The position numbers and the translations under genes are program-made. The notes beneath the pieces are model-generated. The model was not told the origin of the DNA, ran no database searches, and saw only the letters and a program-made list of their open reading frames with translations. Source: Thereva unica (taxonomy: Eukaryota > Arthropoda > Insecta > Diptera > Therevidae). From it: 64,000 nucleotides of DNA. The DNA lies in assembly GCA_949987705.1 (NCBI GenBank), contig CATLJY010000866.1:1-64000 (forward strand), read 5' to 3'. This document shows, piece by piece, positions 7,962 to 35,868 of this stretch. How positions within the stretch are numbered: the stretch's first letter is position 1; each line of letters begins with the position of its first letter.

Positions 7962-8296
7962 TCCTTACTAATATCAAAATGCGAAAGTAACTCTGTCTGT
8001 CTGTCTGTTGCGCTTTCACGCCTAAACCACTGGACCGATTTTGATGAAATTTGCTACAGACATAGTTTAGACCTTATGGAGAAAAAAGGGTTGAAGGGGG
8101 TGAAATGGGGTTCAATAAGTTGTAAGGGGATTTTTTTCTTTACTTTTTTTCTATTGTATAAAAAGTAACTGACTTACAACGCACAACCTTAACCGCTAGA
8201 GCTAAAGGGCTGAAATTTTGACAGTGCATCCCTAGCGTTTTTCGAAATTCATCCCCTAAGGGGGTGAAATGGGGTTTACCCAAACCGCTGGAGCTA
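7962..8296 (+). mobile_element. Helitron, 5' end segment
   Basis: Starts TCCTTACTAATAT after an A, as expected for 5'-TC of a Helitron inserted between A and T. It continues with AAATGCGAAAGTAACTCTGTCTGTCTGTC and the common insect Helitron text about CTTTCACGCCTAAACCACTG, then enters the ~119-bp satellite-like repeat. The segment is interrupted at 8296 by the LTR element that begins at 8297. The remainder lies at 15058-15350 and probably 41091-43104. Confidence 0.7.
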
Positions 8297-10211
8297 TGTA
8301 ACGGTCGGAATTATTAGTTATTTGGGTGGGGAAATTTAGTTGGGAAATCACCTTGTAGGCAATGGGAAATTTATTGTAAATCACTTTTGAGGAAAAGGAA
8401 AAATTTAAAAAGAGGTAGGCGAGAACAAAAAAATAATTGAGTTAGTCAGGAAAAAAAGAAAAATTTGGGAGTTCAGTTAGTGTGAGTCAGCTCGTAGAGT
8501 TTGTTTGGAATGATTTGCTAATATTTTTGCAATCAGTCAGGAGATTCAGTTTTTTTTCAATCGGTTTTTTTGCAATTGGCTTTTTTGCATGACGGAGTAA
8601 ATAGTGGCGGCTACCGTGTTCGCTCCCAACCTGATGGTAATCAAGAAGCTACCAAGAAGTCTTCCAAAAAACCAACCAGAAGGGGTCAAGAAACCAGCGA
8701 CAAGGAATCCTGCTTCTCATTTCCTGGCGATTTGCAGCGTGCAGACGAAAAAGGCTTTCATCGTATGTGTAGCAAGGCGGTCATTGCTCATCTAGCAGCA
8801 AATTTCGAAGGAGAATATTTGGGTGGTGCTATTCTGGTGTACCTTGGATTCTACGTCTGTTGGTCAACCTGAGATCATCGGCGTTTCTCAAGAGAGTACA
8901 AGAATTTCGTCACATTAACACGGAAGTGATTGGCTGCCGTGTTGATTCACATTTTTGGTCAATTGGCTTGGTGTAGGAAAAGAAGAAGAGGCACATGCAT
9001 TGCGGCTTCATTTCACTAGTGGTCACCGAGGTGTTTTACGGCAGTGTACTATTAATGAATTGCCTGGTGGCAGATTTGGTCATGAAGCGTTGCGCCTGGT
9101 GAACACTTTTCAAGTACGGATATAGATGGTGAAGTCGGCCTAATTTGATTGGACTAAGGGCGATAAAGGTATCGTGCCAACTTAAGAAGGAACAAAGAAG
9201 TATTGATTTTTCGGTATGGCATTTACTTTGTATATTACTTTTGCAATATATTCGGAAAGGTGGTAGTAAATTTGGGTTTCAAAAGAAAAAAATAGATATC
9301 TAAAATAGCTATACACACATATATAGATTTACACAATACAAATAAATAAAATAACACAAATTTTTACCTTCATTTATTAACTTTAACTTTATTACTCAAA
9401 TAATAATTTTAACGGTATTAAGCAAATACTTTATAAATTGTTGTTCTTTCACTGTTCCCGTACAATTGTTATGTAATAATTTAAACGAAATTTCCTTTTT
9501 ATTTGTTCTAATTTTATTATAAAATATTGGCTTAAATTTTTTTTTATTTGCAAAATAATTTTCTGGTTGTTTTCCAATAACTTATTCGTAATTATAATTG
9601 GACACGATATTTGTTGATACCCCTTGTGAGTAAAACGAAGCGAAATTGGTACCAATACGAGACGTTTTGCAAATCAGTTAGCATACGGAAGTATCCCTAC
9701 CGGGGAAATTGTGAATGTTTTTATGTTGTAACTGTAAATGTATTGAGCTAGGATGACATTGTTCTAATCGTGTCCCATTGAATATTGATATTACCTATTG
9801 GTGTTTCTAGTATTTTGTTAATGTTTCTGAAATAAAAGAAAACAATTTTTAAGTTATTAAGAATGAACTCAAGTTGTTAGATTTTTTCTTGGGAATGGTT
9901 GGGACGGATGACTTCCTTTTCAGGGTGTGACGCGTCGCAGACGATGATCGGAAAAGGATGATGGCGGAATTCAAGTTACATAGTCACAGGTGAGTGGTGA
10001 ACCAGCCTCGGTAAGCCCCGGCCACACACCCCACGACCCCTCCGGCGAGCTAGACAACTCCGTGTGGCCGGCGTAGGAGTTCCGGATTTTCTTTTTATTT
10101 CTTATGTATGGTGTTGGCTCCTTGGCCATGCTCTTCCGGGCTTTTGGCTAAGGGGGTAACACCTCGCATAAGTGGCGCCCACTATTTAGATCGCGCCATT
10201 ATGCTGTTACA
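8297..10211 (+). repeat. Left LTR, 1915 bp
   Basis: Begins TGTAACGGTCGG and ends GCTGTTACA, the usual TG...CA form. It contains a peroxiredoxin pseudogene at about 8774-9206, AATAAA-type signals near 9346 and 9829, and near its end a TGGCGCCCAC that resembles the adjacent primer-binding site. At 1.9 kb it is unusually long for an insect Gypsy LTR, which fits acquisition of foreign sequence. Confidence 0.85.
8774..9206 (+). pseudogene. Captured peroxiredoxin (2-Cys type) fragment, left LTR copy
   Basis: Three frames together read as a typical 2-Cys peroxiredoxin, an enzyme that reduces peroxides. An N-terminal KAVIAHLAANFEG leads to a strand-like VVLFWCTLDS, then the active-site region. There the usual FVCPTEII reads SVGQPEII, so the peroxidatic Cys is lost. 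Next comes RVQEFRHINTEVIGCRVDSHF (8893 onward; shown here only as a short landmark such as NTEVIGC), then GVLRQCTINELPGGR...EALRLVNTFQ at 9029-9115, and a C-terminal WTKGDKGIVPT near 9150-9185. Stops and frameshifts occur throughout and part of the middle is missing. No intron interrupts the readable stretches, consistent with capture from a spliced mRNA. Confidence 0.85.
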
Positions 10212-10215
10212 TAAA

Positions 10216-10227
10216 TGGCGCCCAACG
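10216..10227 (+). promoter_or_regulatory. Primer-binding site, tRNA-Lys type
   Basis: TGGCGCCCAACG starts 4 bases after the left LTR and is complementary to the 3' end of mature tRNA-Lys including CCA. It fixes the element's orientation as plus. Confidence 0.8.
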
Positions 10228-10534
10228 AAGCTTTTAAAGCCCGTTGACTGTCCTACACGGACCCTGAGATTAAATTTTTTTTTGGTTTAGTACCACTTGT
10301 GCCTTCACGGACAACGTTTAATTTTTTTTGTTTATGGTTCACCACTTTTACCCAGCGCTCGCTGTGGGCTAAGGTAGTACCGCGAAGCCTTAGTCCTTGT
10401 CTGTCTTGTCGATTTTTTTTTCAGCATCTGTGTCTAAATTCTATGTGAATTTTTTATTTGTCTTCGCTTTTAGGCCTACCCGTTCTATTCAGCGGTAACT
10501 TCTTCTTTTTGGAGTAGCTTCGAACCATGCTGAC

Positions 10535-10756
10535 CTGCACGGCTTGCTAACAAGCGAGTGGTCGCTTGGCTATGCGTGCAGGTGTAGTAGTGGTTCATCC
10601 CTGTCCTGCTTCTAGGGTCGGCGACTCTGGTATCAGGCGTGATACCGCCTGCCACTGCGTCGGTCCGTGAACAGGATCCTCTTTTATTTTTCCTGGTGGA
10701 AGGTGAAGTTGGTACAAGGGCTTAACCGTCTCTGGTAACAGGCGTGTTACCGCCTG
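10535..10756 (+). other. Structured leader: nested hairpin and two CAGGCG palindromes
   Basis: CTGCAC...GTGCAG (10535-10581) encloses CAAGCGA-gtgg-TCGCTTG, giving a long nested stem. Two copies of CAGGCG-N6-CGCCTG follow at 10634-10651 and 10739-10756, each followed by CCACTGCG. Position just after the primer site suggests an RNA packaging or dimerisation signal; that role is inference. Confidence 0.5.
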
Positions 10757-11786
10757 CCACTGCGCCCCTTGCCCTCCTGATGGTCCATCCAGCTTTTTTA
10801 AATTCTATTTTTTTGTTTATGTCCTGAGTTTTTTTCGTCTGTTCCTCCCAACTGATTGATTTTCCGAAAGGTAGCTCAGTTGTGGTTGAACAGCGGATCC
10901 CCCAAATTTTTTTTATTTTTGAAGAAGTTTCCTTTCCTTTCGTGGCGATGCGATTTTGGATTTTTTTTCTGTCCTTCTTTTGAGTGCGGACCTGAAGCTG
11001 TGACGGCGATGTGGATGGCACTTGGGGATGACTGTGAGTCATAGTCTTCGCCAACTGACATCGACATGCCGGAGCCCGGAAAGTGAATGTAGTCCCGCGC
11101 CCAACCATTCCGAAATTAAAGTTGAATTAAAGCATATAATTACGCATCTACACTAACATATATATACATTAACACACTTTTATTGTTTTATAGCTACACA
11201 CTACTTGCTTTTATAAGACGCTTACACGCGCGATCATTTTTTAATACGTTAATTTAGAGAAAAATTAAATATAACAGATCTACACATATATGTGTTTTTA
11301 AGACGGTTATTTGGTAAAGTTTAATAAGGAAATATAATTTTACAAATTTAAATGCAACGAATTTGTAGTATTAACGATTTTATCATCAGGATTTTAGTGG
11401 TCTAAACATAACCAAGTTCTTTTACAATATTTATCAGTCAAAATCAGCTGTGCGGAACTCTGCTTAAATTGTCAGTGGTCGTCGAGAAAATTTTTTCTTT
11501 ATTGGTTTGTAAGGTTATTTTTAAAGCCGGAAAATTTATTTCCATCTCAACTCGGAACTTGCGAAGCAAAAATTGGACACAAATAAAGTGGCCAGTATCC
11601 AGATATGGATGACGTATTTAACACTAAGCCCACTAGAGCTGGCAGCTGCAGCCGCCAAACTTTTCTTCATCTTGATGTCAGTTTCCTCTGGATTCCTGAT
11701 TTTCTCGTATTTCCCGCAATTTAAATATAATTAACGGATCCGTAATACGAAATTATTGAAAGTGTTTGCGTGACTGATATTCGGTA
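10757..11786. other. Interior of the LTR element without recognisable coding sequence
   Basis: Contains short ORFs on both strands (for example 10722-11108 minus) with low-complexity composition and no family motif, then AT-rich DNA from about 11110. From about 11580 the sequence may be 5' flank or leader of the captured ALG12 copy. Confidence 0.4.
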
Positions 11787-12670
11787 ATGGGGCTCATACT
11801 GTTCTTGGTAGCTCTGGCTCATCTATTCTATGCACCCTTCCCAAATGTGGAGGAGAGCTTTAATATACAAGCAATGCATGATATACTCTATCTACGGCAC
11901 AATTTCACTCAGTATGATCATCATGAATTTCCTGGTGTAGTGCCACGAACTTTTATTGGGCCTTTTATTTGTATCAATATTATCGTCACCCGCTGTTATC
12001 TTCTTCCAGAATTTGGGAATTCAAAATTTTGGAGTCAATATGTAGTTAGACTAGTGCTAGCCGGAATTGTAGCCGCAGCATGGAAAATTTAAGAAAAGTA
12101 ATAGAAAAAATTCGGCCTTACTATATCGATATGGTATGTTAGTAACGATATCACAATTCCACTTTATGTTCTACATGAGTCGTCCTTTATCAAATGTCAT
12201 GGCGCTTCCAGTCGTACTTGATGCAGTTAGTTTTTGGCAACAAGAGAAGCATAATCTCTTTGTATTGTTTTCTGGAACTGCAATAATAATATTCAGATCG
12301 GAATTAGTGATTCTTCTAGAAATATTGGTACCTACCGATCTTTATACCAGAAAAATCTCAGTGGATAAGCTATTAAAGGTAGGAGTACCAGCAGGTATCA
12401 ACATTTTAACAACTACGGTAATTGAATGACAAGTTTTATGGTATAATAAGATTTTGAATAAGAACTCAAAATGGGGTGTTTCACCGTTACTATGGTGTTT
12501 TTACTCCGCAATCCCACGAGCAATGGGGCATCAAAATTTTTTTTATCCCTCTAGGTTTTGTTTTTTAACCGAGATGCTGACCAATTGGAGTAGCTGCAAT
12601 CACTTCGTATTCCTATACTCATTTTACCGCATAAAGACATACGTCGTTGATTTCCTCAAGGTTCCATCTT
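11787..12670 (+). pseudogene. ALG12: Intronless ALG12 fragment captured inside the LTR element
   Basis: ALG12 is the ER membrane dolichyl-P-mannose:Man7GlcNAc2-PP-dolichol alpha-1,6-mannosyltransferase of N-glycan assembly. The ATG at 11787 opens a frame with the family's N-terminal hallmark VEESFNIQAMHD, then QYDHHEFPGVVPRTFIGP, SKFWSQYVVR, QFHFMFYMSRPLSNVMALP, FRSELVILLE, VGVPAGI and [18 protein letters not shown]. These match ALG12 in order over roughly the first 290 of about 480-500 residues. A stop at 12092 and frame changes near 12120, 12430 and 12540-12610 break it, and homology ends near 12670. The run is colinear with no introns, so it looks like a processed-mRNA capture. It lies between the two LTRs in the same orientation. 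Confidence 0.88.
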
Positions 12671-12689
12671 CATTTTTTTATTTTCGGTC

Positions 12690-13142
12690 AGTCTGGAGAA
12701 GGTCTCTCGGCGAACTGGGTGTCTGTCGGTTCACCGGGATGATTCGAAGGCAATATGGCATTGCTGGAGGTTGTGCCGATGGATCGAAAGCACCCGGGGT
12801 TTGTGTGAGAATGTTTGGAGACGTATAGATGTCAGTAGGGGGACAATGTGGTATTGTCTTCCGCCTGATATTTGTACCTTCAGATATTCCTCCGGGAGAT
12901 TTTTCAGACTGGCCATCGCAACTTACGGTTGCAAGCATGAACCTAAATTATAGTTAGCTTTTCACTCGGTTCTTATATTACCAACTAGTTCACGTATGCC
13001 CGGCTAGCTCACTAGAACATGAGACTCCTATTCTCAGGTCGTGAGTCGAGACCCACATTGGCGCCAAAGATATTAGACCTACGGCGACCGTTTTTTTCGG
13101 CTCCTCACTGCCTCGCGAGTCGGCCTCGTGGACCCGAGGGTA
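12690..13142 (+). other. 3' end of the LTR-element interior, shared with the second Gypsy
   Basis: A phrase of the type ACAATGTGGCATTGCCGGAGG occurs near 12752 and again, more diverged, near 12840; it also occurs near 53653 in the 3' part of the Gypsy at 43-56 kb. A tRNA-Lys-like relic follows in both elements. This suggests the LTR element descends from that Gypsy group by loss of gag-pol. Confidence 0.45.
12998..13066 (+). pseudogene. tRNA-Lys-like relic ending in CCA
   Basis: GCCCGGCTAGCTCA..., then AACATGAGACTC and ...ACCCACATTGGCGCCA, follows the tRNA-Lys(CTT) sequence from the acceptor stem through the D arm, anticodon stem and T arm. Several bases are lost or changed, including in the D loop, anticodon and T stem. 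The terminal GCGCCA includes CCA, which is not encoded in eukaryotic tRNA genes, so the source may be a mature tRNA copied by reverse transcriptase. The element's primer site is also tRNA-Lys type. Confidence 0.65.
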
Positions 13143-15057
13143 TGTAACGGTCGGAATTATTAGTTATTTGGGTGGGGAAATTTAGTTGGGAAATCACCTT
13201 GTAGGCAATGGGAAATTTATTGTAAATCACTTTTGAGGAAAAGGAAAAATTTAAAAAGAGGTAGGCGAGAACAAAAAAATAATTGAGTTAGTCAGGAAAA
13301 AAAGAAAAATTTGGGAGTTCAGTTAGTGTGAGTCAGCTCGTAGAGTTTGTTTGGAATGATTTGCTAATATTTTTGCAATCAGTCAGGAGATTCAGTTTTT
13401 TTTCAATCGGTTTTTTTGCAATTGGCTTTTTTGCATGACGGAGTAAATAGTGGCGGCTACCGTGTTCGCTCCCAACCTGATGGTAATCAAGAAGCTACCA
13501 AGAAGTCTTCCAAAAAACCAACCAGAAGGGGTCAAGAAACCAGCGACAAGGAATCCTGCTTCTCATTTCCTGGCGATTTGCAGCGTGCAGACGAAAAAGG
13601 CTTTCATCGTATGTGTAGCAAGGCGGTCATTGCTCATCTAGCAGCAAATTTCGAAGGAGAATATTTGGGTGGTGCTATTCTGGTGTACCTTGGATTCTAC
13701 GTCTGTTGGTCAACCTGAGATCATCGGCGTTTCTCAAGAGAGTACAAGAATTTCGTCACATTAACACGGAAGTGATTGGCTGCCGTGTTGATTCACATTT
13801 TTGGTCAATTGGCTTGGTGTAGGAAAAGAAGAAGAGGCACATGCATTGCGGCTTCATTTCACTAGTGGTCACCGAGGTGTTTTACGGCAGTGTACTATTA
13901 ATGAATTGCCTGGTGGCAGATTTGGTCATGAAGCGTTGCGCCTGGTGAACACTTTTCAAGTACGGATATAGATGGTGAAGTCGGCCTAATTTGATTGGAC
14001 TAAGGGCGATAAAGGTATCGTGCCAACTTAAGAAGGAACAAAGAAGTATTGATTTTTCGGTATGGCATTTACTTTGTATATTACTTTTGCAATATATTCG
14101 GAAAGGTGGTAGTAAATTTGGGTTTCAAAAGAAAAAAATAGATATCTAAAATAGCTATACACACATATATAGATTTACACAATACAAATAAATAAAATAA
14201 CACAAATTTTTACCTTCATTTATTAACTTTAACTTTATTACTCAAATAATAATTTTAACGGTATTAAGCAAATACTTTATAAATTGTTGTTCTTTCACTG
14301 TTCCCGTACAATTGTTATGTAATAATTTAAACGAAATTTCCTTTTTATTTGTTCTAATTTTATTATAAAATATTGGCTTAAATTTTTTTTTATTTGCAAA
14401 ATAATTTTCTGGTTGTTTTCCAATAACTTATTCGTAATTATAATTGGACACGATATTTGTTGATACCCCTTGTGAGTAAAACGAAGCGAAATTGGTACCA
14501 ATACGAGACGTTTTGCAAATCAGTTAGCATACGGAAGTATCCCTACCGGGGAAATTGTGAATGTTTTTATGTTGTAACTGTAAATGTATTGAGCTAGGAT
14601 GACATTGTTCTAATCGTGTCCCATTGAATATTGATATTACCTATTGGTGTTTCTAGTATTTTGTTAATGTTTCTGAAATAAAAGAAAACAATTTTTAAGT
14701 TATTAAGAATGAACTCAAGTTGTTAGATTTTTTCTTGGGAATGGTTGGGACGGATGACTTCCTTTTCAGGGTGTGACGCGTCGCAGACGATGATCGGAAA
14801 AGGATGATGGCGGAATTCAAGTTATATAGTCACAGGTGAGTGGTGAACCAGCCTCGGTAAGCCCCGGCCACACACCCCACGACCCCTCCGGCGAGCTAGA
14901 CAACTCCGTGTGGCCGGCGTAGGAGTTCCGGATTTTCTTTTTATTTCTTATGTATGGTGTTGGCTCCTTGGCCATGCTCTTCCGGGCTTTTGGCTAAGGG
15001 GGTAACACCTCGCATAAGTGGCGCCCACTATTTAGATCGCGCCATTATGCTGTTACA
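13143..15057 (+). repeat. Right LTR, 1915 bp
   Basis: Same length as the left LTR and, on line-by-line reading, almost identical. It starts TGTAACGGTCGG after a weak purine stretch (CCGAGGGTA) and ends CTGTTACA before the GCTA duplication. Confidence 0.85.
13620..14052 (+). pseudogene. Captured peroxiredoxin fragment, right LTR copy
   Basis: Exact positional counterpart of the left-LTR copy (offset 4846), with the same frameshifts and the same loss of the peroxidatic Cys. The capture and its decay therefore predate this insertion, since both LTRs were copied from one template. Confidence 0.85.
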
Positions 15058-15350
15058 GCTATAAGGTTGAAGTTTTGTCAGTGCATCCCTATAATGGAGT
15101 GGACATCTACTATAAAACGATTTGGGTTTACCCAAACCGCTGGAGCTATAAGGTTGAAGTTTTGTCAGTGCATCCCTATAATGGAGTGGACATCTACTAT
15201 AAAACGATTTTTCGAAATTCATCCCCTAAGGGGGTGAAATGGGGTTTACCCAAACCGCTGGAGCTATAGGGCTGAAATTTTGACAGTGCTCACTATAATG
15301 AGGTGGACATTCACCAACAAGCGATTTTTCTAAATTCATCCCATAAGGGG
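15058..15350 (+). mobile_element. Helitron, middle segment (satellite units)
   Basis: Resumes exactly in register after the LTR element (GCTATAAGG...). It contains two tandem copies of GTTGAAGTTTTGTCAGTGC-type units and further ~119-bp repeat units with the phrases AAACCGCTGGAGCTATA and TTCGAAATTCATCCC. Interrupted at 15351 by the provirus LTR. Confidence 0.7.
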
Positions 15351-17951: not shown

Positions 17952-18030
17952 TTACTTATGTTTAAGTATACAACAGTACACCATAAAGCAACCGCTAGCG
18001 CCGAGCACTTCGAGCAGCAGGGACAACGGG
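17952..18030 (-). pseudogene. C-terminal membrane tail of the provirus Env, split off by BEL
   Basis: On the minus strand, directly next to the BEL repeat, a hydrophobic stretch (LSLLLEVLGASGCFMVYCC) is followed by a short basic tail and a TAA at 17952-17954. Length, hydrophobicity and position suit the transmembrane anchor and cytoplasmic tail of an insect retroviral envelope. The rest of env ends at 26023 on the other side of the BEL insertion. Described only; the gene is interrupted by 7.9 kb and by stops. Confidence 0.5.
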
Positions 18031-18031
18031 G

Positions 18032-18331
18032 CGATCATGCCAGATCGCCCCCTCTTTCAAATTCCACCTCGAGCAGGAAGAAGAGGCTTCTGGCTCGCGA
18101 TCAATTTTGATCATAGTTAGTGCGAGTTCAAAGTAGCACGGAGACAGATCACGGGTTAAATTTAAAGTTTGTTTGTTTGTACGATCGCAAGTATAGCGAT
18201 CATCCATATATTGATCATTATAACGTTTTTCTTTTCACCAAAATATAATTATTCATTGGAGAATCCGTGATGTTTTTGTTCACGTGCCTGGAATAAAACC
18301 CCATTCCTCATCAGATCCGTTGCAAACAACT
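18032..18331 (+). repeat. BEL/Pao left terminal repeat
   Basis: Starts CGATCATGCCAGATCGCC and ends GTTGCAAACAACT. The first ~45 bases correspond to coding sequence and the purine tract GCAGGAAGAAGAGG in the right copy. AATAAA-like ATAAAA occurs near 18291. Confidence 0.75.
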
Positions 18332-18347
18332 GGTCCTTCGAGCCGGA
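18331..18347 (+). promoter_or_regulatory. BEL/Pao primer-binding site
   Basis: TGGTCCTTCGAGCCGGA directly follows the left repeat. Similar GGTCCTTCGA(A/G)CCGG sites are common in insect BEL elements. Confidence 0.65.
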
Positions 18348-20383
18348 TTTTGCCCTTGGAGTTCGGTTTAGTAACACCTGGAACTATTTGCATCACAAGA
18401 CGCCCTCTCAGGAACCGGACAGTAAAAGGGCCTCAATCTTGCAACGGTGAAAGACGCAACAAGATTCCTGACAATGACTACGGCTGGACTTCACAAGATG
18501 CCGGCAACGCGGGAATAATATTCAAGCTGGTTACTCATCCACGACGTCTCATACTTATTATCAAACACACCCCCTTTCCCCATAAAAAACAAGGAGAGTG
18601 AAGATTTTCATTTGATTTAATAAAAAAGTGCCGCATTGCTAAAACCCTTAAATATTCAATCAAAATGTGCTGAGCCACCTATTTCAAGGAAGATTAGCCC
18701 ACTCATGTTCGCGCTATAGTGTTGTTTAGTGTAATCAAAGGTGTACGATTTTGAGGATCGGTCGCTGGAGTTCATCCAAAGTGGTAAATCATTCGATTAA
18801 CTCGTGCCGATGCAAACGGCCCAGTTTCCATAACACGGGAGGTAGACAAGTGTCTTTCAATACATAACTCGCATATGTTTCCACCTAATCAATGAAAAGA
18901 ATTAAGTAACGGTTCGCTGTTGGGATGATGTCGGTTGTGTATTATCTTGCATTTTTTTATTTTATTAGTTGCTGACAATTCGCTAAACCCGTTATTAGTT
19001 TCATAAAGTACGTATGTATATTCGAAACCAAGTGTTTTAGGCGGTATCCCCTTTTATCTCCCAGTGTCGGACTGGACCATAACGGATATATTGAATCCTT
19101 TGTTTTATTATTCGAGATGAATTACTTTGTAACATAGGTTCTTAATTGTATTAATATTGGAGAAGATCGGTTATTCTTTCATGTGAATTTCAATGGGAAG
19201 AATTTAATACATACAAAGGATACATTGTTGGATTTGTTTGGCGTGGAATCCGTCTATATTCCGCTATGAACTTGTAGAAGTTTTGGGATTCAATTTTTTT
19301 TTTGCTATTGATTTCATTTGAATTTAGTTAAGATATAGTTACATTTAATATAAGGAAATAGATTCTTTGTTGATTGCATTGGGATTTAAGTCTCTCTTGA
19401 ATTTGAATATACAGTCGATAAATTGGATTTTCGTCGATTTTCTTCATGGTGTTAATATTTGAGAATAGCAGTTTTGCTTTCATGTTAATTTAAATTGGAA
19501 GAATTCACAACAAAGGATACTTTTTGGATTTGGTTGGCATTGCATCTATTTATTTTCTGATGCGAACTTCTAGCAGTTTTGGAATTCAATTTTTGTGATT
19601 GATTTTATTTGAATTTAGTTAAGATATAATTACATTTAATATAATTAAATAGATTGTTTGTTGATTTCATTTGGATTTAAGTCTCTCTTGAATTTGAATC
19701 TACAGTCGATAAATTCAACCTTTTAATGTTGAATTCGAAATGGAAGTTACTCGTATATAGATTTTACTATCGCATATTTTCTCAATTGCATGATAAATAA
19801 TATGTTGTATAGAGAGAGCTTTAAGGTATATTTCATTTTTATTTTATATGGATATGGATTTTCGATGGATTTATAAATGAATTAATCGGTGTTTGAAGTG
19901 ACACATAAATTTATTTTCTATTTTATTTCTGTTTAAATTTCGTCTGCTGGATAAGGATTGATAATGAATACTTTTATTGTTTTTTTTTTCTTTTCTTTCC
20001 TTGGCGTTAATTCGATTTTCTTATGTTGAAGTTTGATTTATTTTCTATTCTATTTGTGTTTAGTTTTCGTCTGCTTTGCTGCTTTTATTGTTCTTGCTTC
20101 TTTCCTTAGCTTTAATTTGGTTTTCTTATGTCGGTTCACAATCCCTAACGCCGGAGAATTTCGATTTTTCTCAATCGAATTTAAAGCTTAGTTACATTAT
20201 AAGTCGAATCCCCCCTTCCCAATTATTGAAATCGTTCGCATACTAACCAATTCTCTCTTTATTGGTAAAAGCAAAATTATCTCTGTTTCTCGATCCTGTA
20301 ATCCTACTCTTCAGCAGCGCCTCTGATAGGACCCTTGCGTCTATTTCAACCCCTACTAGCCCTCCGTGTCAGTTGATTTCCAG
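18348..20383 (+). other. BEL/Pao leader with two ~290-bp tandem repeats
   Basis: About 2 kb of AT-rich untranslated sequence before gag. Two diverged tandem copies lie at about 19151-19441 and 19449-19730. Each carries GGAAGAATT...ACAAAGGATAC, GAATTTAGTTAAGATATA(G/A)TTACATTTAATATAA and TTTAAGTCTCTCTTGAATTTGAAT. A third partial similarity (TTCGTCTGCT...) occurs near 19940 and 20066. The ORF at 18284-18601 has no recognisable domain. Confidence 0.6.
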
Positions 20384-23300
20384 ATGCCATCGACACCCCC
20401 TGAAGCTGGGAGCCAGGATCCTTCCCCAATCCAGGCACTCATATCAAAGTAGTTGGCCACCGCTGAACAACTGCGAAAGTTATGGGTCAACTTCACTAAG
20501 TCCCCCAAAGCTCGACTAACTCCTGGATACATCCAGGGAAGGATAGCCGCCTTAGATATTCTATGGGATCGTTTTCAAATTCAAGACCAAGAAATAGAAT
20601 CCATCGTTACAGATCGAGAGCGACGCACTTTGGAATATTTAACCCAAGACGAATATACTTACCACGAAAACCAAGTAGCCGAATGGACAGGCACATTGCT
20701 CGATATGTTGGGCGAAGGTAGCCGTAGCAAAAGCGACGAAGCCCTTGAAAGTCGTACTTCGACTCCACTAGCCTCTGACCCTCCTGCTCCCATTTCACAA
20801 CTGGATCTTAAGTTGCCCCGGATTTCCCTACCCCAGTTTTCGGGGGAGTCCAAGAATGGCTTTCATTAACATGATCTGTTTGAATCGTTAGTTCACAAGC
20901 ACCCCTCTATCCCGGCAGTACAAAAGCTGCATTACCTCAAAAGCAGTCTAAAGGGCGAAGCCTATAACTTGATTAGACAGTTAACCCTCACCCAAGCAAA
21001 TTATGATAGCGCGTGGCACATGTTATGCGATCGGTATAATAATCCCCGTTTACTGATAACGCGTTACATCCAATCGCTTCCGACCCAACCTTCTCTTCTC
21101 TCCGAAAGCCCTTCACCTATTCGTCAGCTTATGGACACCACTAATGAATACTTGGCGTCCCTCAATGGTTTAAAAGTGAACGTAGAAACTTGGGATCCTA
21201 TCATCGTCACTTTAATGGTCTCTCGATTGCCCCAAGATACCAGAAAGCTCTGGGAACAGGACCAGGGGTCCTCTACCTCATTTCCCCCTCTCAAGAAATT
21301 GCTCGAGTTTTTGGATTCCCGAGTGCGAGCCTTGGAAGCCACTCGTGATCAACGGCCTCCACGGCAGTATCCACCAGCCCGAACCATCCCTCCGGGGAGG
21401 GCATTGGAAAAAACTCCCCAGACTCACTCATTTCACACATTTTCCTCACCTGGATGCCCCTGTTGTAACGCCAAACACCTAATAAAGGTATGCCCCAAAT
21501 TCAAAGCCATGCTTCCACCCGCACGGAGTAATCTCGTGAAACAAAGAGGACTCTGTTTTAATTGTCTGGCCACAAGGCATCAAGTGCAGAAATGCCCTAG
21601 CCACCAAGGATGTTTCAAGTGTGGCGCCAGACATAATACTTTGCTACACCCCGAAGGCGTTCGGGACCCTTCGACTCGACCGCTCCCTAGCAACGAGAGT
21701 CCATCTCGTAGCGATCCCCCACAAGAGCCGGTATCCCCGGTTCGGACGTATTTCACATCTAAATCCCGTAAGTCCCTGTTAGCCACAGCGCGGATTAACG
21801 TTATCGCTGCCTCGGGCGAGTTAATGGTCGCTCGTGCTCTAATTGACCCCGGTAGCGAAGCGTCCTTCATCACTACCAAGTTGGTACAGCAATTACGTCT
21901 GCCAAGACAAGCAGTCTCCACTCAAATTGACGGTGTAGGTATGACCGCTCTCACTTCCTCGAAATATAGGGTCCAGGTTAACATTCAGTCTACCGTGAAT
22001 CACGATTTTGTCATGGAGATAGATGCTCTCGTCCTGAGTACGCTCACCGATCAACTCCCTCCAGAGAGACTTATCACTGGGCGATGGCATCACCTACATG
22101 GCATCCAACTTGCAGATCCCCGCTTTTATGAACCTGGGTCCATCGATCTTATTTTAGGGGTGGAGGTATATTCCGAAATTATTCATCCATCAATAAAGAA
22201 AGGAGGTGTAGATGCACCAGTGGCACAGGAGACCGCTTTAGGGTGGGTTCTGTTCGGGAAACGTCCTCGCCACACTCCTAGGGCATCAACTATTGTTAGC
22301 TTGCATAACAGAGTGGAAATTGACGAATGCCTCCGCAAATTCTGGGAAATTGAGGAAGTCTTCGAACCCCCTGCTCTAACAGCCGATGAGAAACATTGCG
22401 AGAGCCTATATCGGGAGAGCCATCGCCGAGAACCCAGCGGTCGCTACATAGTGAAGTTGCCATTTGTCTCACTCCCCCGCCAAGAAAGTATACTGGGCCC
22501 ATCTCGCGAAATCGCAATCCGGCGTTTTCATTCTTTGGAAAGAAAGCTCAATCGTTCTCCTCAGTTAGCCGAGGAATATATTAAATGCGTCGAAGAATAT
22601 TTCACGCTAGGGCATGCGGAAAAGGTTACCTATCCACAAATAGAAGACTCCCCTATAAATCATTGTTATTTGCCTCATCACGCGATAGTGAAGGCCGACA
22701 GCGCCACTACAAGGTGTCGTGTGGTGTTTGATGCATCCTGCAAAACTCAGAACGGCTTTTCTCTAAACGACCGACTCCTAATTGGTCCCCGACTTCAGCA
22801 AGACATCTGTAAATTGATCATAAACTGGCGCCTTAAACGGTTTGTGTTTTGTGCAGACATCGAAAAAATGTACCGCCAAATTTTAGTCAGTGCGGAAAGC
22901 GCCGAATTTCAGAGAATCGTCTGGCGCCGGCAGCCTGAACTTCCCTTAGAAGATTTCCGATTGAAAACCGTCACTTTCGGGACAGCTAGTGCGCCCTACT
23001 TGGCCATTCGTACATTACATCAGCTGGCGTTGGACGAAGGAGCCAACACTCCAAAAGCGGCGGATGCTTTAATAAATGACACTTACGTGGACGACGTTTA
23101 TTCAGGTGCCGACGATCTGTCCGAGGCCGAGTCCCTGCAAGCTGATCTCATCACCCTACTCCGAAAGGGTAAATTCCATCTCCATAAGTGGTCCACCAAT
23201 CATCCCAAACTTCTTGAAAAGGTCAAACCAACCGATCTTGGCCCCAATTCCCAGTGCGTAAGTGTGCTTCCGGACGACATCATTAAAACATTAGGACTTT

Positions 23301-25729
23301 TTTGGAACCCATCCACTGATCATTTTAGCTTTCGACTACGCACAGATACCCCTAAATCCCCCTTCTCGAAACGGACCGTGGTCTCATACATTGCCCGTTT
23401 ATATGATCCCTTAGGTTGGTTGTCCCCTGTACTTATTCGAGCAAAGATTTTCATCCAAACGCTCTGGCAGCGTGATCTTACCTGGGATGAAGTGTTACCC
23501 CAGGACTTAGAAATGCAATGGCAGCGCTTCATAGATTCACTCCCTGCGATTGAACGACTCAAAATCCCACGACATGTCGTCCCTTTCCACCCAAAGACAG
23601 TGCAACTGCACGGCTTCTGCGACGCTTCTGAACGCGCTTATGCCGCCGTCCTCTATCTGCGAGTGGAAAATTCACATGATACGCAAGTGTTTCTCTTAGC
23701 CTGCAAGACTAAAGTAGCTCCCGTGAAACCCGTCACCTTGCCTCGGCTCGAGTTATGTGGGGCCGTTCTGCTGTCAAAGCTTGTAAGAAATGCAAAACCT
23801 TCCTTACCAGTTCAAAACGATCAAGTTTTTTTGTGGACCAACTCAACGATCGTGTTATCGTGGTTGGGGCGACACACTCTGAAGTCTTTCGTAAGTAACA
23901 GAATATCGACCATACTGACTAATATAGGGGCCAGAAAATGGCGCCACGTGCCATCATCACAAAATCCTGCCGATGGAAGTAGCCGTGGAAGGTTTGGAGA
24001 AGAATTGATTCAGGACTCGTTGTGGCTTGAGGGACCTCTATGGCTTAAACACTCTCAGGAGCATTGACCGCCACCCATCATCAACCATGGCGAAGACCCT
24101 CAAATCCTCGAATTGCGGCCTGCGAAAGTATTCCTTGCACACCCAACGGAGTCTTATCTCGAAACCATCCTGTCTCGATTTTCGCAGTTATCTCGCCTAT
24201 TACGCGTTACTAGCTACTGCTTCAGATTCGTTCGATATGGTCGCACGACCAATAATTTACCTCATGCTCTCACTCTACTGCCCTCCGAACTCGACCAAAG
24301 TCTTAAATTTTGGTGTCGATACATACAGGCAAAACATTTTCCGACAGAAGTCGATTGCTTACTACGACGAAACCCCTTACCCAAACACTCGAAAACTCTG
24401 TCCCTCAATCCCTTTCTGGACGCAGAACACCTAATCCGCGTAGGAGGCCGATTAGCATATTCCAGCTTACCCTATGAGGAGCGTCACCCGATCGTACTAC
24501 CCCACGAAGGACATTTTACAGAGTTACTCGTGAGAGACGCACACCACCGCACTCTGCATGGAGGTCCACAACTGATGCTATCCTTCTTACGACGAAAATA
24601 TTGGATTCTCCGAGCCCGTCTTTGCGTGAGGAAGTGCTTCCATAATTGCGTGACATGCTTTCGCTGGATGAAACAAGCCCAGTCGCAACTGATGGCCCAA
24701 CTACCCCCAGAACGCGTCCTGGTCAGTCGCCCTTTCACATATGTCGGCGTGGATTATACGGGTCATTTGGACATTAGAACCAACCGCAGTAGAGGGAGCA
24801 GAACATACAAAGGATATCTCGTCGTCTTTGTATGCCTGTGTACAAAGGCCATACTTCTGGAAGTAGTTGGAGACCTGACAACCTCTTCTTTTCTAGCCGC
24901 ATTCCGCAGGTTCTTATCCCGTCGAGGAACCTGCAGGAAGGTCTTTTCTGACAATGCAACCAACTTCGTCGGAGCAAAAAGGCAATTAGATAAATAGCTC
25001 AGAGTGGCCATCCGGCAAAGTGAAAGGGAAGCCGCCCAAACCTTAATTTCCCAGGGCATCGCTTGGCATTTTATTCCACCATCGTCCCCCCACTTCGGTG
25101 GCCTTTGGGAAGCCGGCGTGAAATCTTTAAAGTATCACTTTAAACGAATTGCAGGTAATCGGTCCTTTGTGTATGAAGAGCTTCTCACCCTAACTACCCA
25201 AATCGAAGGATGCTTGAATTCACGTCCTCTATGTCCTTTGTCCGATGAAATCACGGTTTATGAAGCGTTGACTCCGGCCCATTTCCTCATTGGTGCCCCC
25301 ATCTTATCCCCTCCTGAGCCAAATTTAGAGGACTGTAAATTACATCTTTTAGATCGATGGCAACATATACAACGAAGTCGACAAGAATTTTGGACCCGCT
25401 GGAGTTCAGAATATTTGTCCCGTCTACAGCAGCGGCCGAAATGTTGCCGTGTCCAACCCAACTTAAATGTAGGTGACCTCGTCTTGCTAAAGGATAAATC
25501 TCTTTCTCCCTTGAAATGGAAACTTGACCGTATAATGAAAACACATCCCGGGCCAGACGATCTAGTCCGAGTGTTGACAATCAAAACTGCCACGTCTGAG
25601 CTCCAGCGACCGATCACCAAGGTCTGTCCATTACCTCGGACGATCATGCCAGATCGCCCCCTCTTTCAAATTCCACCTCGAGCAGGAAGAAGAGGCTTCT
25701 GGCTGGCGATCAATTTTGATCATAGTTAG
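20384..25729 (+). pseudogene. BEL/Pao gag-pol polyprotein, one frame with four stops
   Basis: A single frame of 1782 codons runs from ATG 20384 to the TAG at 25727-25729. It is broken by TAG 20450, TAA 20867, TGA 24065 and TAG 24995, with no net frame change. Domains in order are gag; zinc knuckles (CFNCLATRHQVQKC near 21552 and CFKCGARHNTLLH near 21613); aspartic protease with LIDPGSE near 21840; RT with FCADIEKMYRQI and YVDD at 23084-23095; RNase H with HGFCDASERAYA; and integrase with an H2C2 region (24540-24660), VDYTG, FSDNATNF and GGLWEAG as the three acidic sites. Around 20850-20869 a one-base loss and one-base gain offset each other and create the TAA. Enzymatic motifs are otherwise intact, so loss of function is recent. 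Confidence 0.9.
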
Positions 25730-25940
25730 TGCGAGTTCAAAGTAGCACGGAGACAGATCACGGGTTAAATTTAAAGTTTGTTTGTTTGTACGATCGCAAG
25801 TACAGCGATCATCCATATATTGATCATTATAAGGTTTTTCTTTTCACCAAAATATAATTATTCATTGAAGAATCCGTGATGTTTTTGTTCACGTGCCTGG
25901 AATAAAACCCCATTCCTCATCAGATCCGTTGCAAACAACT
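25641..25940 (+). repeat. BEL/Pao right terminal repeat
   Basis: Direct repeat of 18032-18331 with about four substitutions (roughly 1.3 per cent). Pol terminates inside it at 25729. Confidence 0.75.
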
Positions 25941-26022: not shown

Positions 26023-27582
26023 TCAGTTCTTAATTTGTTGGGCGTTTATTGATTCGAGTGATCTGGCGCCTTCTTGCAATATTTTATTCGCTTCGTCCCC
26101 CGTTATCAATTTTATGTCATCTATGTTAGTGTTTATTTGTCTATTTGGTATTTCTAGGCTGAAATTTGTGGTCCCGACGCTTGAGAAGTATGGCCGCTGA
26201 TCCAGGTTATGTGTTTCCTTCGCCTGGTTTGTGTATATTAGTGTTTTATTTTTTATTCGAACCTGGCATGGTCCGTTTATTGTCAAGACCCCTTGTTTGG
26301 CTACCTTTAGTGTGTGAGTCATTTTGTTGCACGTAATACGGAATGTCACTGGCGCGCTTAAAGCGTATAACCATGTATTGGGTCTTGCCAGGCTTATGAG
26401 GGTATTAGTCGGTGGGTCCTGAATCCTTACTGGGCATTGTACTTTCTCTTCTGCAGGGTCGTATAGTAGCTTAATTACGCATTCCTGGGTATCGGGATAA
26501 TATATAAATGGGGTCCTTAGTAATCCCACATACGACTGGTCTTTAGGGTCCCCTGTAGTGTTTTGAAAGCCTTTGACATCTGCTGCAGTGAATAGTGCGA
26601 ATTGTTGTGATTTGATTTCGGACGCTATATGTGAATAGTTGATTACTGGGATTACCGAATGTCCGGTGTTGGATAGCGTGGGGAAGTACCTTATTTGATA
26701 ATAATATGACATTCTTGGCATGTTGAAAATTGGCAACGTTATTTTTACCACCAACTTGTCTCTGATCATATGGGTATATAGCTTCGTTGTTTGTTGGAGT
26801 ATCGGTAGGCACTTTTCGCACTCGGGATGAGTCTGAAGAAACGTTTTCTCTAGTGTTTCCGGGGATAGGGGGTGGAGTCTATTGTTTTGACTGGTTAGTA
26901 TTATTTCTAACAGTGTCCTTTGCCTGGATTCTATCTCTACTAATTGGAACAGGAGGTTGGTTACCAGTCCCTGACGTAATTGATCCTTTTCCTTGCCTTT
27001 TATTGCGTTATTTGGGGCTCGTATCTGTTCCGTGATCCTATATTGTCGGTCTAGGAGGGTTGTTAGGGGTGCCTGGATCTTCCGGAGTGTGTTATTGACC
27101 ACTGTTATTTGTAGTTTTTCTAGCCTTTTGGTTCGACTCCAGTTCTCCTACCCGGCTGTATATCTCCGTTCATTGTTTTCGTCCATGGTACCGATCAAGT
27201 AGTGTAGGGCGTGACCAATGCCATCGAATATAGACCTGCTGGTTCGACTCTTGGGGAGCATTTCTTGGATGATGTGGGTTCGCTTTTTTATATGTTGCAG
27301 TATCGAGTGGATGTGTGACTGTTGAGCGCCGCATAGTGGTAGTATCGTTTCGTTACACAGTTGTTTGGCGGTTTGTCCCGCCTGTTCTACCAAAGTTGTT
27401 TGGGTTTCTAGTTCTTGAAGGTCGACCTCTGTGATAATGTTCCACACATCGTGATATAGCCATAGCTCTCCTAAATATTCGTAGATTACCCCAGTCGCGT
27501 TGATTGGCGAGAACGTGTATGGGGGTACGTTTTGGTCGGCTAGCGTTGCTTGTAGAAGCAATAGTGTTATCAGCGTCCTCAT
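26023..27582 (-). pseudogene. env: Envelope (F-like fusion protein) of the errantivirus-like provirus, broken
   Basis: Insect errantivirus envelopes resemble baculovirus F proteins and mediate membrane fusion. The N-terminal part (27582-27151) starts with a probable signal peptide (MRTLITLLLLQATLA). It contains a basic furin-like cleavage site just before a Gly-rich, fusion-peptide-like hydrophobic stretch. An in-frame TAG at 27148-27150 interrupts it, and the same frame then continues as a long ectodomain to a TGA at 26023-26025. The membrane anchor is not here; a likely tail lies beyond the BEL insertion at 17952-18030. One stop within, one near the end and a large insertion show the gene is inactive. 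No altered version is given. Confidence 0.75.
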
Positions 27583-27781
27583 TTTGCGCTGTAACGAGAA
27601 TGTAGTTAGGGGATTAGTTCGGTTGTGCTAGGAGTTGTGTGGTAGTAGGGTTTGGTCCTGCTTAGTCTGTCTAGTTAGTGTGTATTGTTGTATGCAGGAC
27701 CAGTTTTACTCCGACTAAGGTTGTGTTTCATGAAACGGGTTTAGACGGTTGTTGTGAACCGTTACTTGCTTCTTATTTATC

Positions 27782-29173
27782 TTAATTGAGGAGTACTGGG
27801 CTTGGGACAGCGGTCACTGTGTAGGGTCCTATCCATATTTGGGACAATTTGTTCTTGCGTGCCTCGTTGTGTAGAAGGACCTTGTCTCCTATATGTAGTG
27901 TTAGGGGCCGCGCCTTCCCATCATAGTATCTTTTGGAGCGGTTTTTACTGGCGAGTAGATTCTTACGTGCCAGTGCATATGATTTTTGTAGTTTATACCG
28001 GAGACTCTCGTGATTGTATATGGGTTCCGACTCTCGTTTTAGATTGGATGGGACGTCGGCTGTGAAGCCGTAAAGGCAGTCCATCGGGGTTAACTTAGTC
28101 CCTTTGGGGGCCTCGGTAGCGTAGGGGTAAGGCGCCTGACTACTATCCCAGAGGTCCCGGGTTCGAATCCCGGCCAGCCTCACGGTCTTTTCCACGTTTC
28201 CACTCACATAACTTTCCTTCGTTCTTCTCCCCTCTTTACATTCCTGATTCCTCCTGTCATAGCCTTCGCTAGTCCTTCCCCGCTCCACCAAGCGCATGTC
28301 ATAGGTTGGTTGAAGAGATTCAACTTGTTTCAGGAGGCATAACACTCCAGCGAGTTATTTCTCAAATGCCCCGATGCCAGAGTCGCGAAATGGTTGGAAG
28401 TAGGTGGAATAAAAAAAAATTATATATCGCGGCTAGGTTGTGGCAGCTCCTTCCCACTTCTCTCTCTCTCTTTACTTCTCATCTTCCGGCTAGAGCTGCT
28501 GTCCGACATTCTATAGGAAAAGAAAAAAATAGATTGTCGGACAGTACAAAGGGGCTTTCCCTAAGTCTCTAGTCTTTCATAAAAAAAAAAAAAAAAAAAA
28601 CACTGTTGTTGTACACGAATGCTGCTGTCCGAAGGAAATTGTCCCAGTTTTGTGGGGGCTCTCGTCAACGAGGGTGCGCAGGTATTCTATTAGTGGTCTG
28701 TGTGTGCGTTCTAATGCTCCATTGGACTGAGGGTGGTACGCAGAAGTTTGGAGTTTCTTAACTTTTAACAGCCTACACACGCTTTTGAAAAGGTCACTCA
28801 GGAAGTTTGATCCCTGGTCGGTGACTACTTGTTTTGGTATGCGATAGCGCGTGACGATTTCGGCGAAGAAAATTTGGGGTACCGTTTGAGCTTCCCCATT
28901 GGGAATGGCATACCAATCGACGAATTTGGTTAGGTTATCCTGGAAGGTTAGGATGTACTTGTTTCCCGAATGTGTTTCTTCCAGGGGTCCTACTATGTCT
29001 AAATAGACTTTATCGAAGGGTTTTTCAGCAATGTCCGTGATAACCATGGGCATTCGGAATTGTATAGAGGCCTTCATGGTTTGGCATTTCTTGCACCTTC
29101 TTATGTAGCGAGAGATATCGCGGAACATACGTCTCCACCAATATTTTTGGCGAATAAGATTGTAGGTTTTCAC
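27782..29173 (-). pseudogene. Integrase of the provirus, split by a SINE
   Basis: On the minus strand from 29173: part of the H2C2 zinc-binding domain (RRCKKCQTMK), then the catalytic core with acidic residues in VYLDIVGP, TDQGSNFLSD and NGALERTHR, the D,D-35-E pattern. Near 28665 a one-base change in a C-run shifts the frame. A tRNA-derived SINE occupies about 28106-28600. The C-terminal part (about 28105-27782) has the family's KGTKLTPMDCLYGF and the IGDKVLLHNE...WIGPYTV chromodomain-like end. Integrase inserts the cDNA into host DNA; this one is non-functional. Confidence 0.8.
28106..28600 (+). mobile_element. tRNA-derived SINE
   Basis: The head is tRNA-like, with an A box (TAGCGTAGGGGTAAGG, about 28118) and a perfect B box (GGTTCGAATCC, about 28160). 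A ~400-bp unrelated body follows, with a CTCTCTCT tract near 28460 and a 20-bp A tail at 28580-28599. It is inserted in the integrase in antisense. I do not see a convincing target duplication. The Pol III boxes look intact, so it may still be transcribed. Confidence 0.8.
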
Positions 29174-29467
29174 GACTCCCTGGTGTCCACCGAAAGGGGA
29201 ATCGTGGTAATCTTTTAAAATTGTGTTTATCTCCTCCTGACTGGTAATGACCTCAACTTTCTTCTTCCCTTTGAGGTTGTTGTCTTTGGGAGGGTCTTCT
29301 GGGGTTTCATCTTCGATCTCAGGCGGTTTGGGCCCTTCCTCTGAGTGGGGGGCTTCTAGAGACGTAGTTCTTTTGTCCTTTTCGTCGTCTTTCTGCTTTT
29401 ACGCCCTTGTGATAATGTTGCATTGCTTGGGCGCCTCTCCTTCTTTTGTTTGGAGGTGTTTTCCGGG

Positions 29468-29875
29468 TTAGTGAACTTGAGCTTCTACCGTGAAGGTTTT
29501 TGGCTCCTCTGCGAATTGTGGTATACGGCTGAGTGCATCAGCATTTGTATTATATTTTCCCGGTTTGTACTCGATAGTGTAGTCGTATTCCGACAGCTTG
29601 TGATGGAATCTCACTAGTCCAGTAGTTGGGTCTTTGACGTTGAATACGCCTTTGAGAGGTTTATGGTCCGTGTAGACCGTAAACTTCCGACCCAATAGAT
29701 AACACCTGTAATTTTTCCCAGCCCAGACTATTTCCAGTAACTCTTTCTGAATGGTGGAGTAGTTGCGTTCTGCATTGTTTAGAGTGCGGCTTGCGTAGGC
29801 AATAGGCTGGTCTTTTCCTACTTCTCCCTGAGAGAGCACTGCTCCGAGTGCCTCACTACTTGCATCCGTTGTCAA
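29468..29875 (-). pseudogene. RNase H domain of the provirus; RT core deleted
   Basis: Begins TTDASSEALGAVLSQ, with the first catalytic Asp, then YSTIQKELLEIV with the Glu, TDHKPLKG with the second Asp, and a C-terminal NTNADALSRIP. This is the Gypsy-type RNase H that follows RT. Only about 110 bp separate it from the C-terminal part of the preceding protease/gag-pol frame, leaving almost all of RT missing, including the catalytic YxDD region. The copy could not have replicated autonomously. Confidence 0.8.
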
Positions 29876-29954
29876 GTTAAACGGCTTGTCGAAATCTGGA
29901 TAGATTAGCAGTGGAGGGAATATTAAGTTATGTTTTATTTGTTGGAGTGCGTCT

Positions 29955-31151
29955 TCACACTTTGGTGTCCAAGAAAATTTTACGCCTCTTGTGACCCCGT
30001 TTTAATTTGACCCCTAGTTTTTTCTGCCATTTGTGGCTTGTTTTGAGCGGTGGGGTGCCAGTTTTAGTTACTAGTCGTTTATTCCCGCACTCGCCGTTGT
30101 CTTTTTTGACAAAGAGCCTTGGGCTAGAACTTGCAGGGTTGGGATTGAGTGGTATTGTAGAGTAGCCATTTGTGGGGACGAGCGTTAGAGTTAGACTCGT
30201 TAGAGCTACTGGATAGTTGTTAGCATTGAGGAGGCCAACAAATACTCTTTGGTTTCCAGAAGGTAAGAGGGCATTCGCGAGGAATACTCCCTCACAGGGC
30301 TCTTGAGCTTTACAGAGCATTTCTTCCTCTAAACTTAATGGTATTGGTACCACCATCTGAGACCGGCCTGGGATACAAATAGATTCCGTTAAGATTACCT
30401 TTTGTCTCAGGTCTTCATTGGTCTCGAAACCGTTAAGGTTGTTATCTAACCTTGACCCATCTTGAGATTGGCAGCTTGTATTCCTCGCGGAGGGTACCTG
30501 GGAGACACCACCGGGGGTCGTCTCGGCTTCTACGAGCTGAGACTCCCTGGTTTGGGTTTGCTCCTGCTGCTCTCTGGGTTTCGGTTTGGTGGTTTTGGTT
30601 TGTAATAGGATGGTAATTTCTTCCGGATTAATTTCCGTGCGAGGAAATCGTAATGTCTCGTTAGGACCCTCAACGTTGCAGTGCTGGGAGAGGAAGTCGT
30701 TTCCTAGAAGGCCATCTTTGGGAATCTCTGGCATGTTCTGCACTATTTGGAAAGTGCAAGGAATTGGAGTTTTCAAATTGAAGTTTCCTTGGCAACTTCC
30801 GAGAGTCTTCCCTTCACCGAATGGTGATTGTAGCGAGCACTTTTGAGAAGGGTTTATAGTGACATTTTGTCGAAGCTTATTCTTTTTTAGTATTGTAACC
30901 TCAGAGCCTGTATCCACCACTAGTTGTGTTTTGCCGTTGAGGCTTATGTCGAGCGGAAGAGTTACTAGTGGGTTTGTACTAGTTGAGGCCTGAGGTCCCC
31001 CATTTGGTTTTTTGTTAGTGTTTAGTGTCGGGCCGGGGGTATTTGGTGCGACTCTGGGAAGTTTCCCGATTGCGAGTTCTCCCATCGCTGCCTTTATCGG
31101 CAGTGTTCTACCTGATGGCCTCGCCTTCCTCAGAAATCGCATGTTTGGCAT
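29955..31151 (-). pseudogene. Protease region of provirus pol
   Basis: A 398-residue frame on the minus strand. Near residues 70-90 it has VVDTGSEVTIL, the active-site signature of a retroviral aspartic protease, followed by a GLLGNDFLSQ-type second conserved block near 145-155. The C-terminal half is the pre-RT linker and ends near 29955, where deletion of RT begins. Upstream, gag is separated from it by a Helentron-like insertion (31177-31924). Confidence 0.75.
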
Positions 31152-31176
31152 ATGTTGAATACTCGGCGATTGTTGT

Positions 31177-35827: not shown

Positions 35828-35868
<41 letters not shown>

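Follow-up and report, generated by a model that had tools for sequence, protein, structure and literature searches.

How does a long terminal repeat (LTR) retrotransposon without recognizable gag or pol come to hold pieces of two unrelated host genes? The question is raised by a 6.76-kb element at positions 8297-15057 of a 64,000-nt stretch of Thereva unica DNA (contig CATLJY010000866.1, positions 1 to 64,000; hereafter, the window), which has a piece of a peroxiredoxin gene in each LTR and a piece of the mannosyltransferase gene ALG12 in its interior. We propose, with a probability of roughly 0.84, that this is a recent, non-autonomous element of Ty3/gypsy type, a member of a multi-copy family that is served by a gag-pol partner and was built by template switching.

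The element is bounded as originally predicted. Its LTRs and the GCTA duplication can be read directly (Table 1), and two LTRs with TG...CA ends, a target-site duplication and a primer binding site together identify an LTR retrotransposon. The predicted recent insertion is borne out by alignment of the two 1915-bp LTRs, which differ at a single position (C/T at LTR position 1683). Elsewhere in the genome, the LTR pair of copy L036 has 2 differences, and that of copy L037 has 1 mismatch and one 4-base gap. A full 1904-base LTR query was covered at 99–100% by 38 of the 41 genome matches listed, the window's two included, and the whole 2931-bp interior is matched collinearly in 11 copies, counting the window's own. 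Target duplications of 4 bp flank three of four other copies (GTAC at L035, AACC at L036 and CTAC at L037). The primer binding site, TGGCGCCCAACG, which we take to be of the tRNA-Lys type, is widespread: the 910-Mb genome contains 1089 instances of the pattern TTACA, 0–6 nt, TGGCGCCCAACG, and none of the reversed control.

The element lies beside a satellite with a unit of 117–118 bp. When one GCTA is removed and 20 nt of each flank are joined, the resulting sequence is found exactly once in the window, at 15129 within the adjacent satellite unit; joins of 30+30 nt and longer have no exact match to that unit. Hence, the claim that rejoining the flanks restores a satellite unit holds exactly for the shorter join and fails for longer ones, and the description of the insertion site as an empty satellite unit is right apart from small inter-unit differences. 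The unit type hit by the element, 118 bp long, is also found at window positions 61198-64000, 15124-15350 and 42174-42777.

No gag or pol was detected among the element's frames of at least 40 codons, as the original prediction had stated, and scans of the window with Rfam and for tRNA genes gave 0 matches and 0 genes, respectively. The lack of gag and pol, combined with termini common to an enzyme-coding partner, makes the element non-autonomous. A partner that could supply the enzymes had been postulated, and was found. Four partner interiors lying between like LTRs were fetched (L031–L034); a 370-codon gag frame is open in all four, and an overlapping 1136-codon pol frame is open in three, being broken in L033. 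In L033 the order of Pfam matches is Retrotrans_gag (24.4 bits; cut-off 24.1), protease-like, RVT_1 (1.6e-32), RNase H, Integrase_H2C2 and rve (1.2e-18), with two protease matches below the cut-off; the scan of L034 covered a pol piece only. The predicted gag and the order of the pol domains place the partner among the Ty3/gypsy LTR retrotransposons. Pieces of another Ty3/gypsy pol, by eye like the partner's RNase H region, are present at window positions 43455-45920.

Where does the ALG12 piece come from? In the window it is split into several frames, two of which match PF03901 weakly (11787-12092, E 6.7e-5; 12136-12429, E 0.0074; below the curated cut-off), and positions 12478-12644 align with an exon of the native gene at 88.8% identity. 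A search with the C-terminal part of L041, a longer element copy, gave three matches, L041 itself and two at C3:135.951 Mb. The native, intron-bearing ALG12 gene (L063) lies at about C3:135.947-135.953 Mb; its GT-AG introns read GTTAGT...CCAG (~2320-2378 of L063) and GTAAGT...ATAG (~2637-2682). The first is exactly missing from copies L042, L044 and L047 (the surroundings of L047 are unassigned), and the second is exactly missing from L041. These exact absences indicate that ALG12 was copied from spliced mRNA, and they agree with the prediction of an intronless fragment. Furthermore, a tag from near the start of ALG12 is 3.4 kb upstream of the exons in the native locus versus ~550 bp upstream in the window, a spacing from which we infer the removal of at least one further intron. 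The same genome holds an intronless copy and its intron-bearing source, as expected of a transduction of the kind seen in the maize element Bs1.

Many copies make up the lineage to which the ALG12 piece belongs: its tag matches 92 places in the genome, of which one is the native gene and one the window copy, leaving 90 others, and the control matches none. An arrangement in which two solo LTRs surround a native ALG12 locus, raised with the original prediction as grounds for doubting it, is excluded by the location of the intron-bearing native gene on C3. Three other strong GT22 loci (L039, L040 and L043) were rejected as the source; from their translations, judged by eye, we presume them to be ALG9, PIGZ and PIGB. 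NCBIfam gave 0 matches on two native ALG12 exon stretches.

The peroxiredoxin piece has a different distribution. Frame 8955-9125 matches peroxiredoxin chains in the PDB (best E 1.5e-7; peroxiredoxin-4 chains from 2.7e-7). Frame 8570-8872 finds nothing on its own and is homologous to the N-terminal part of the peroxiredoxin at L051. Together, these matches support the predicted identity of the fragment. L051 (C1:186758324) is an intact, intronless gene of 261 codons; both cysteine motifs are recognizable by eye, and its surroundings contain none of the LTR motifs that were looked for. It is the closest intact relative among the fetched loci: the LTR piece is 73–77% identical to it from the N-terminal coding part to ~80 nt beyond the stop. 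The LTR piece is 77–90% identical, in blocks, to L058–L062; an LTR start lies upstream of the peroxiredoxin copies at L059, L061 and L062, and an LTR end adjoins L058. With three mismatches allowed, a 32-nt tag from the peroxiredoxin stretch has 200 genome matches (control 0). Peroxiredoxin is a component of the LTR of the whole family, the gag-pol partner included. In the LTR of L042 it is reduced to its first part (LTR 294-471), and in four ALG12 copies (L044, L045, L048 and L049) it was not found in about the first 600 bp of the LTR, the extent seen. No intron-bearing source was found for peroxiredoxin, the closest candidate, L051, being itself intronless; L051 may be the parent of the LTR piece, or may itself be an old derivative.

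Three observations concern related sequences. A second intronless peroxiredoxin frame (L052, C1:243927132; 185 codons), around which the LTR motifs looked for were likewise not found, is perhaps another retrocopy. At C3:44312573-44320861, two peroxiredoxin-bearing LTRs lie in opposite orientation with starts ~6.4 kb apart, an unusual arrangement. The LTR of L049 (C3:91278478-91279230) contains a stretch that looks coding but does not resemble peroxiredoxin, and that may be another capture into an LTR.

How did the two host pieces come to be in one element? The window's leader is 93.7% identical to that of L044, of the ALG12 lineage, versus 88.4% to that of partner L034 (88.6% when compared over 1015 bp). 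The last 510 bp of its interior are 99.6% identical to L034 and 98.2% to L031, and the rest of the partner interior is replaced in the window by 11203-12632. L037, a sister element with the window's LTR and ALG12 junction, has a leader that is 98.4% identical to L034 and 88.3% to the window, and a 3ʹ end that is 88.9% identical to the window. The two parents have 5 bp, AAAGA, in common at the junction of ALG12 and partner sequence, and the junction is the same in the window and in L037. L036 has the same LTRs as the window and no ALG12. A copy lacking one fragment at the same place had been named as a possible objection to the original prediction; L036 is such a copy, and it shows the mosaic nature of the family rather than a spurious fragment.

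The same modular structure is seen in the spacing of LTR tags. Among the 100 tags listed of 200, there are 30 pairs of same-strand neighbours less than 12 kb apart. The ALG12 tag is in none of the nine pairs that are 7.9–8.35 kb apart. It is in 14 of the 16 pairs that are 4.65–5.82 kb apart, nine of these 16 also including a PAIP1-like frame (described below; overlaps were drawn from the 57 rows used). Three shorter pairs have neither, and one of two longer pairs (8.8 kb) has both. As judged from the alignments, the window copy is most likely a recombinant of ALG12-bearing and partner sequences, and the mosaic points to template switching between RNAs in shared particles.

We propose that a peroxiredoxin copy would have joined the LTR of a lineage that includes the partner, and that a spliced ALG12 mRNA would next have been copied into a non-autonomous lineage. 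A switch at AAAGA would then have joined ALG12-bearing RNA to partner RNA, yielding elements with both host pieces. Sister elements additionally have the PAIP1-like frame where gag would lie, and the window type lacks it. Proteins of the partner, with which the window type has LTR, leader, primer site and 3ʹ end in common, would package, reverse-transcribe and integrate window-type RNA. The broken peroxiredoxin and ALG12 pieces of the window copy probably do nothing.

An alternative explanation is that the mosaic formed only once the copies were integrated, through gene conversion or unequal recombination among them. In favour of this, many near-identical copies are dispersed in the genome, and tandem arrays are present. 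However, both LTRs of the window element are of one type and are flanked by a clean 4-bp duplication, and the unlinked copy L037 has the same AAAGA junction with a duplication of its own, indicating that the recombinant form itself transposed. We therefore consider an origin after integration unlikely. Less probable still is the sequence of events originally predicted, in which one element captured both host genes by two transductions, one of them into the LTR. The presence of both pieces within one bounded element fits such a history, but LTR pairs of partner size have peroxiredoxin LTRs and no ALG12 tag, four ALG12 copies have LTR starts free of peroxiredoxin, and the nearest relative of the window element's leader is not that of its 3ʹ end. 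Because peroxiredoxin is found family-wide in the LTR and ALG12 belongs to a multi-copy lineage, the two are most likely united by recombination, and we no longer regard the captures as events of this one element. Lastly, although both pieces are intron-free and the intronless peroxiredoxin gene L051 exists outside LTRs, it is barely conceivable that they are processed pseudogenes made by long interspersed nuclear elements, with LTR elements inserted into or beside them by chance, since separate insertions cannot explain 91 ALG12 tags besides the native gene, 11 copies collinear over the 2931-bp interior, and peroxiredoxin at the same place inside both LTRs.

Several points weigh against a recombinant built by template switching. 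Gene conversion between integrated copies could yield part of the mosaic pattern. The counts of complete elements derive from tags, and there was no whole ALG12-lineage element with both LTRs among the fetched sequences. The description of LTRs as lacking peroxiredoxin is based on the first part of four LTRs only, and the identity of the partner's LTRs was taken from search identities (99–100% to the window LTR) and not from pairwise alignment. Furthermore, the 3ʹ ends of partners vary, that of L033 being only 89.4% identical to the window, and one of the four other copies, L038, has no duplication at its one candidate pair of ends.

What occupies the gag position in the relatives of the window element? 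In L037, L050 and others, ~770 bp between the leader and the ALG12 segment contain an open frame of 208–209 codons that is absent from the window copy. A genome search with this frame gave at least 161 matches. Among the 32 closest (94–100% identity), 31 have no stop, and 24 are followed within 2.5 kb by an ALG12 tag, versus 1 of the next 25 (about 82–89%), of which 18 have stops in the matched stretch. Many of the stops in these more distant matches probably precede the start codon, because the query began 26 codons ahead of the first ATG and because a search with human PAIP1, which covered the MIF4G part only, found no stop in 148 of the 150 matches listed.

The 209-codon frame was considered as a Gag variant, and this was rejected after matches to MIF4G and PAIP1 were found. 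Alone, the L050 frame matches PAIP1 weakly (E 0.69), behind two glutaredoxin chains (0.49 and 0.68). Longer versions are more informative. L064 (271 codons) matches MIF4G (3.2e-11; 43.8 bits, cut-off 30.8) and, in the PDB, human PAIP1 (3rk6, best E 1.5e-8), ahead of its second match, eIF4GII (0.026). The E value against PAIP1 is 3.3e-7 for L066 and 0.0035 for L065, whose MIF4G score of 29.1 bits is just below the cut-off. The PAM2 family (PF07145) scored below its cut-off of 20 in L050 (E 0.0031, 17.5 bits) and L065 (0.014, 15.5 bits), and gave no match in L064. By these longer versions, the frame is PAIP1-related, with a MIF4G domain nearest that of PAIP1. Querying a large protein database twice with PAIP1-like frames turned up 206 and 567 candidates, of which not one reached E ≤ 1e-3. 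A 444-codon frame at C2:155517066 is a candidate for the native PAIP1 gene. PAIP1-like MIF4G frames are found at L050, L037, L064–L066 and ~150 other places, mostly stop-free in the MIF4G part and in many cases located where LTR elements would have gag, and tandem copies 5059 bp apart occur at C4:58.687-58.703 Mb.

The frame is associated with LTR elements. On C1:1.0-82.3 Mb, an LTR end with primer site lies 1.0–1.6 kb upstream on the same strand in 16 of 25 PAIP1-like matches (two of the 25, near 47.92 Mb, are perhaps a host gene), and no such site lies in the 3 kb upstream of any of the 25 on the opposite strand; random placement gave a mean of 0.05 and a maximum of 2 in 2000 trials. In this stretch, the primer site is upstream of one of three frames in the size class of L064 (303 codons) and of 0 of 1 in the class of L066. 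Over their conserved block, diverged versions have a ratio of nonsynonymous to synonymous substitution (dN/dS) of 0.23–0.44, at a dS of 0.8–2.0 that is near saturation; with random substitution at equal divergence, an open frame survived in no more than 1 of the 500 trials run for each pair. The close copies L050, L022, L023, L024 and L027 have no excess of silent change (pN 0.005–0.014 versus pS 0–0.015; 2–7 differences per pair). Selection on the frame appears to be visible only between diverged versions, and the absent signal in close copies would be expected if only source copies were under selection. Alternatively, PAIP1-like versions may have been captured repeatedly from a host gene that is itself under constraint; the start common to L050 and L066 (MVDTCGRTYYGLP / MGDTCGRTYYGLP) speaks instead for one origin in elements.

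If it is made, the PAIP1-like protein would presumably bind poly(A)-binding protein; that it might aid translation or packaging is a guess. We suggest tentatively, at somewhat less than even odds, that a large, old group of LTR elements replaced gag by a captured and still-working PAIP1-like gene, whose protein would bind poly(A)-binding protein via PAM2 and benefit the element by influencing how its RNA is translated or packaged, while the element itself lives off the gag-pol partner. The window element would be a side branch without this gene and with ALG12 instead. If the PAIP1-like frame works, it would be an example of a retrotransposon in which a translation-factor gene of the host has been kept where the coat-protein gene should be, and one could test in an animal why captured genes are retained by elements. 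With helper, source genes, intermediates and junction all in one genome, the pick-up of host mRNA and recombination with a helper are directly comparable.

Very long LTRs, a tRNA-Lys primer and a 4-bp duplication are features of the Ulysses/Osvaldo group of Ty3/gypsy elements, and the window element, with its putative tRNA-Lys site, resembles that group in all three. The Ulysses/Osvaldo clades and their species are named in PMC5408442. The mechanism that we propose is already covered by known work. According to passages of two papers (PMC13317346, PMC7264820), the maize LTR element Bs1 has transduced parts of three host genes, and to that extent it resembles the window element in carrying several host-gene pieces. 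In contrast to Bs1, the pieces described here occur in separate lineages and were apparently combined by recombination, one of them is in an LTR that the gag-pol partner also has, a further host-like gene, the third, is present in more than 100 places, and the genome is that of an animal. LTR-mediated retroposition in animals, in which cellular mRNA is joined to an LTR element via template switching at microsimilarities, was described by Tan and co-workers, as cited in part of PMC5408686, where signatures of this process are reported for invertebrates, vertebrates and polymorphic Drosophila retrocopies. The difference here is that the captured genes became parts of amplified families. BARE-2 of barley, as outlined in an excerpt of PMC13317346, likewise acquired a new LTR type through template switching, although there the LTR sequence came from another retrotransposon, and here it came from a host gene.

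Additional open reading frames (aORFs) of plant LTR retrotransposons are described in sections of PMC7264820 as extra frames in many copies, more often between pol and the 3ʹ LTR; antisense aORFs are said there to lack similar gene sequences outside elements. The PAIP1-like frame is similarly an extra frame in many copies, but it takes the place of gag and is similar to a host gene. Among open-licence PMC papers, we found none that joins PAIP1, MIF4G and a retrotransposon; MIF4G together with LTR retrotransposon led to a paper on ribosomes, and peroxiredoxin did not occur in the related papers listed.

Table 1. Positions of the element's parts and insertion site in the window.
Feature	Positions	Strand	Basis
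Target-site duplication GCTA, left	8293..8296	.	Direct reading
5ʹ LTR, 1915 bp, TGTAACGG...TGTTACA	8297..10211	+	Sequence comparison and genome matches
Decayed peroxiredoxin copy in 5ʹ LTR (LTR 294-997)	8590..9293	+	Match to L051, L058-L062 and PDB chains
Primer binding site TGGCGCCCAACG, 4 nt 3ʹ of LTR	10216..10227	+	Direct reading and genome pattern count
Leader common to gag-pol partner, nearer ALG12 lineage L044	10201..11203	+	Alignment
Site at which relatives (L037, L050, others) have ~770 bp with PAIP1-like frame; none here	11203..11228	+	
Segment replacing gag-pol and containing ALG12 piece; no match in partner interiors compared	11203..12632	+	
Spliced, frame-broken ALG12 (GT22 mannosyltransferase) piece	11787..12644	+	PF03901, native-exon identity, tags
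3ʹ interior near-identical to partner L034; left junction at 5-bp microhomology AAAGA	12633..13142	+	Alignment
3ʹ LTR, 1915 bp, 1 difference from 5ʹ LTR	13143..15057	+	Alignment
Decayed peroxiredoxin copy in 3ʹ LTR	13436..14139	+	Placed via identity of the two LTRs
Target-site duplication GCTA, right	15058..15061	.	Direct reading

Other repeats are present in the window. A pair of 300-nt direct repeats (98%) at 18029-25937 flanks long gag-pol-like frames (20453-25729) that by eye are of BEL/Pao type. Gypsy-type frames at 26023-33590 are accompanied by an additional frame, 26023-27582, that looks env-like by eye. Finally, positions 35824-36426 and 50047-50649, which are 13.6 kb apart, form a 603-nt inverted repeat (96%) made of a 146-bp tandem repeat.

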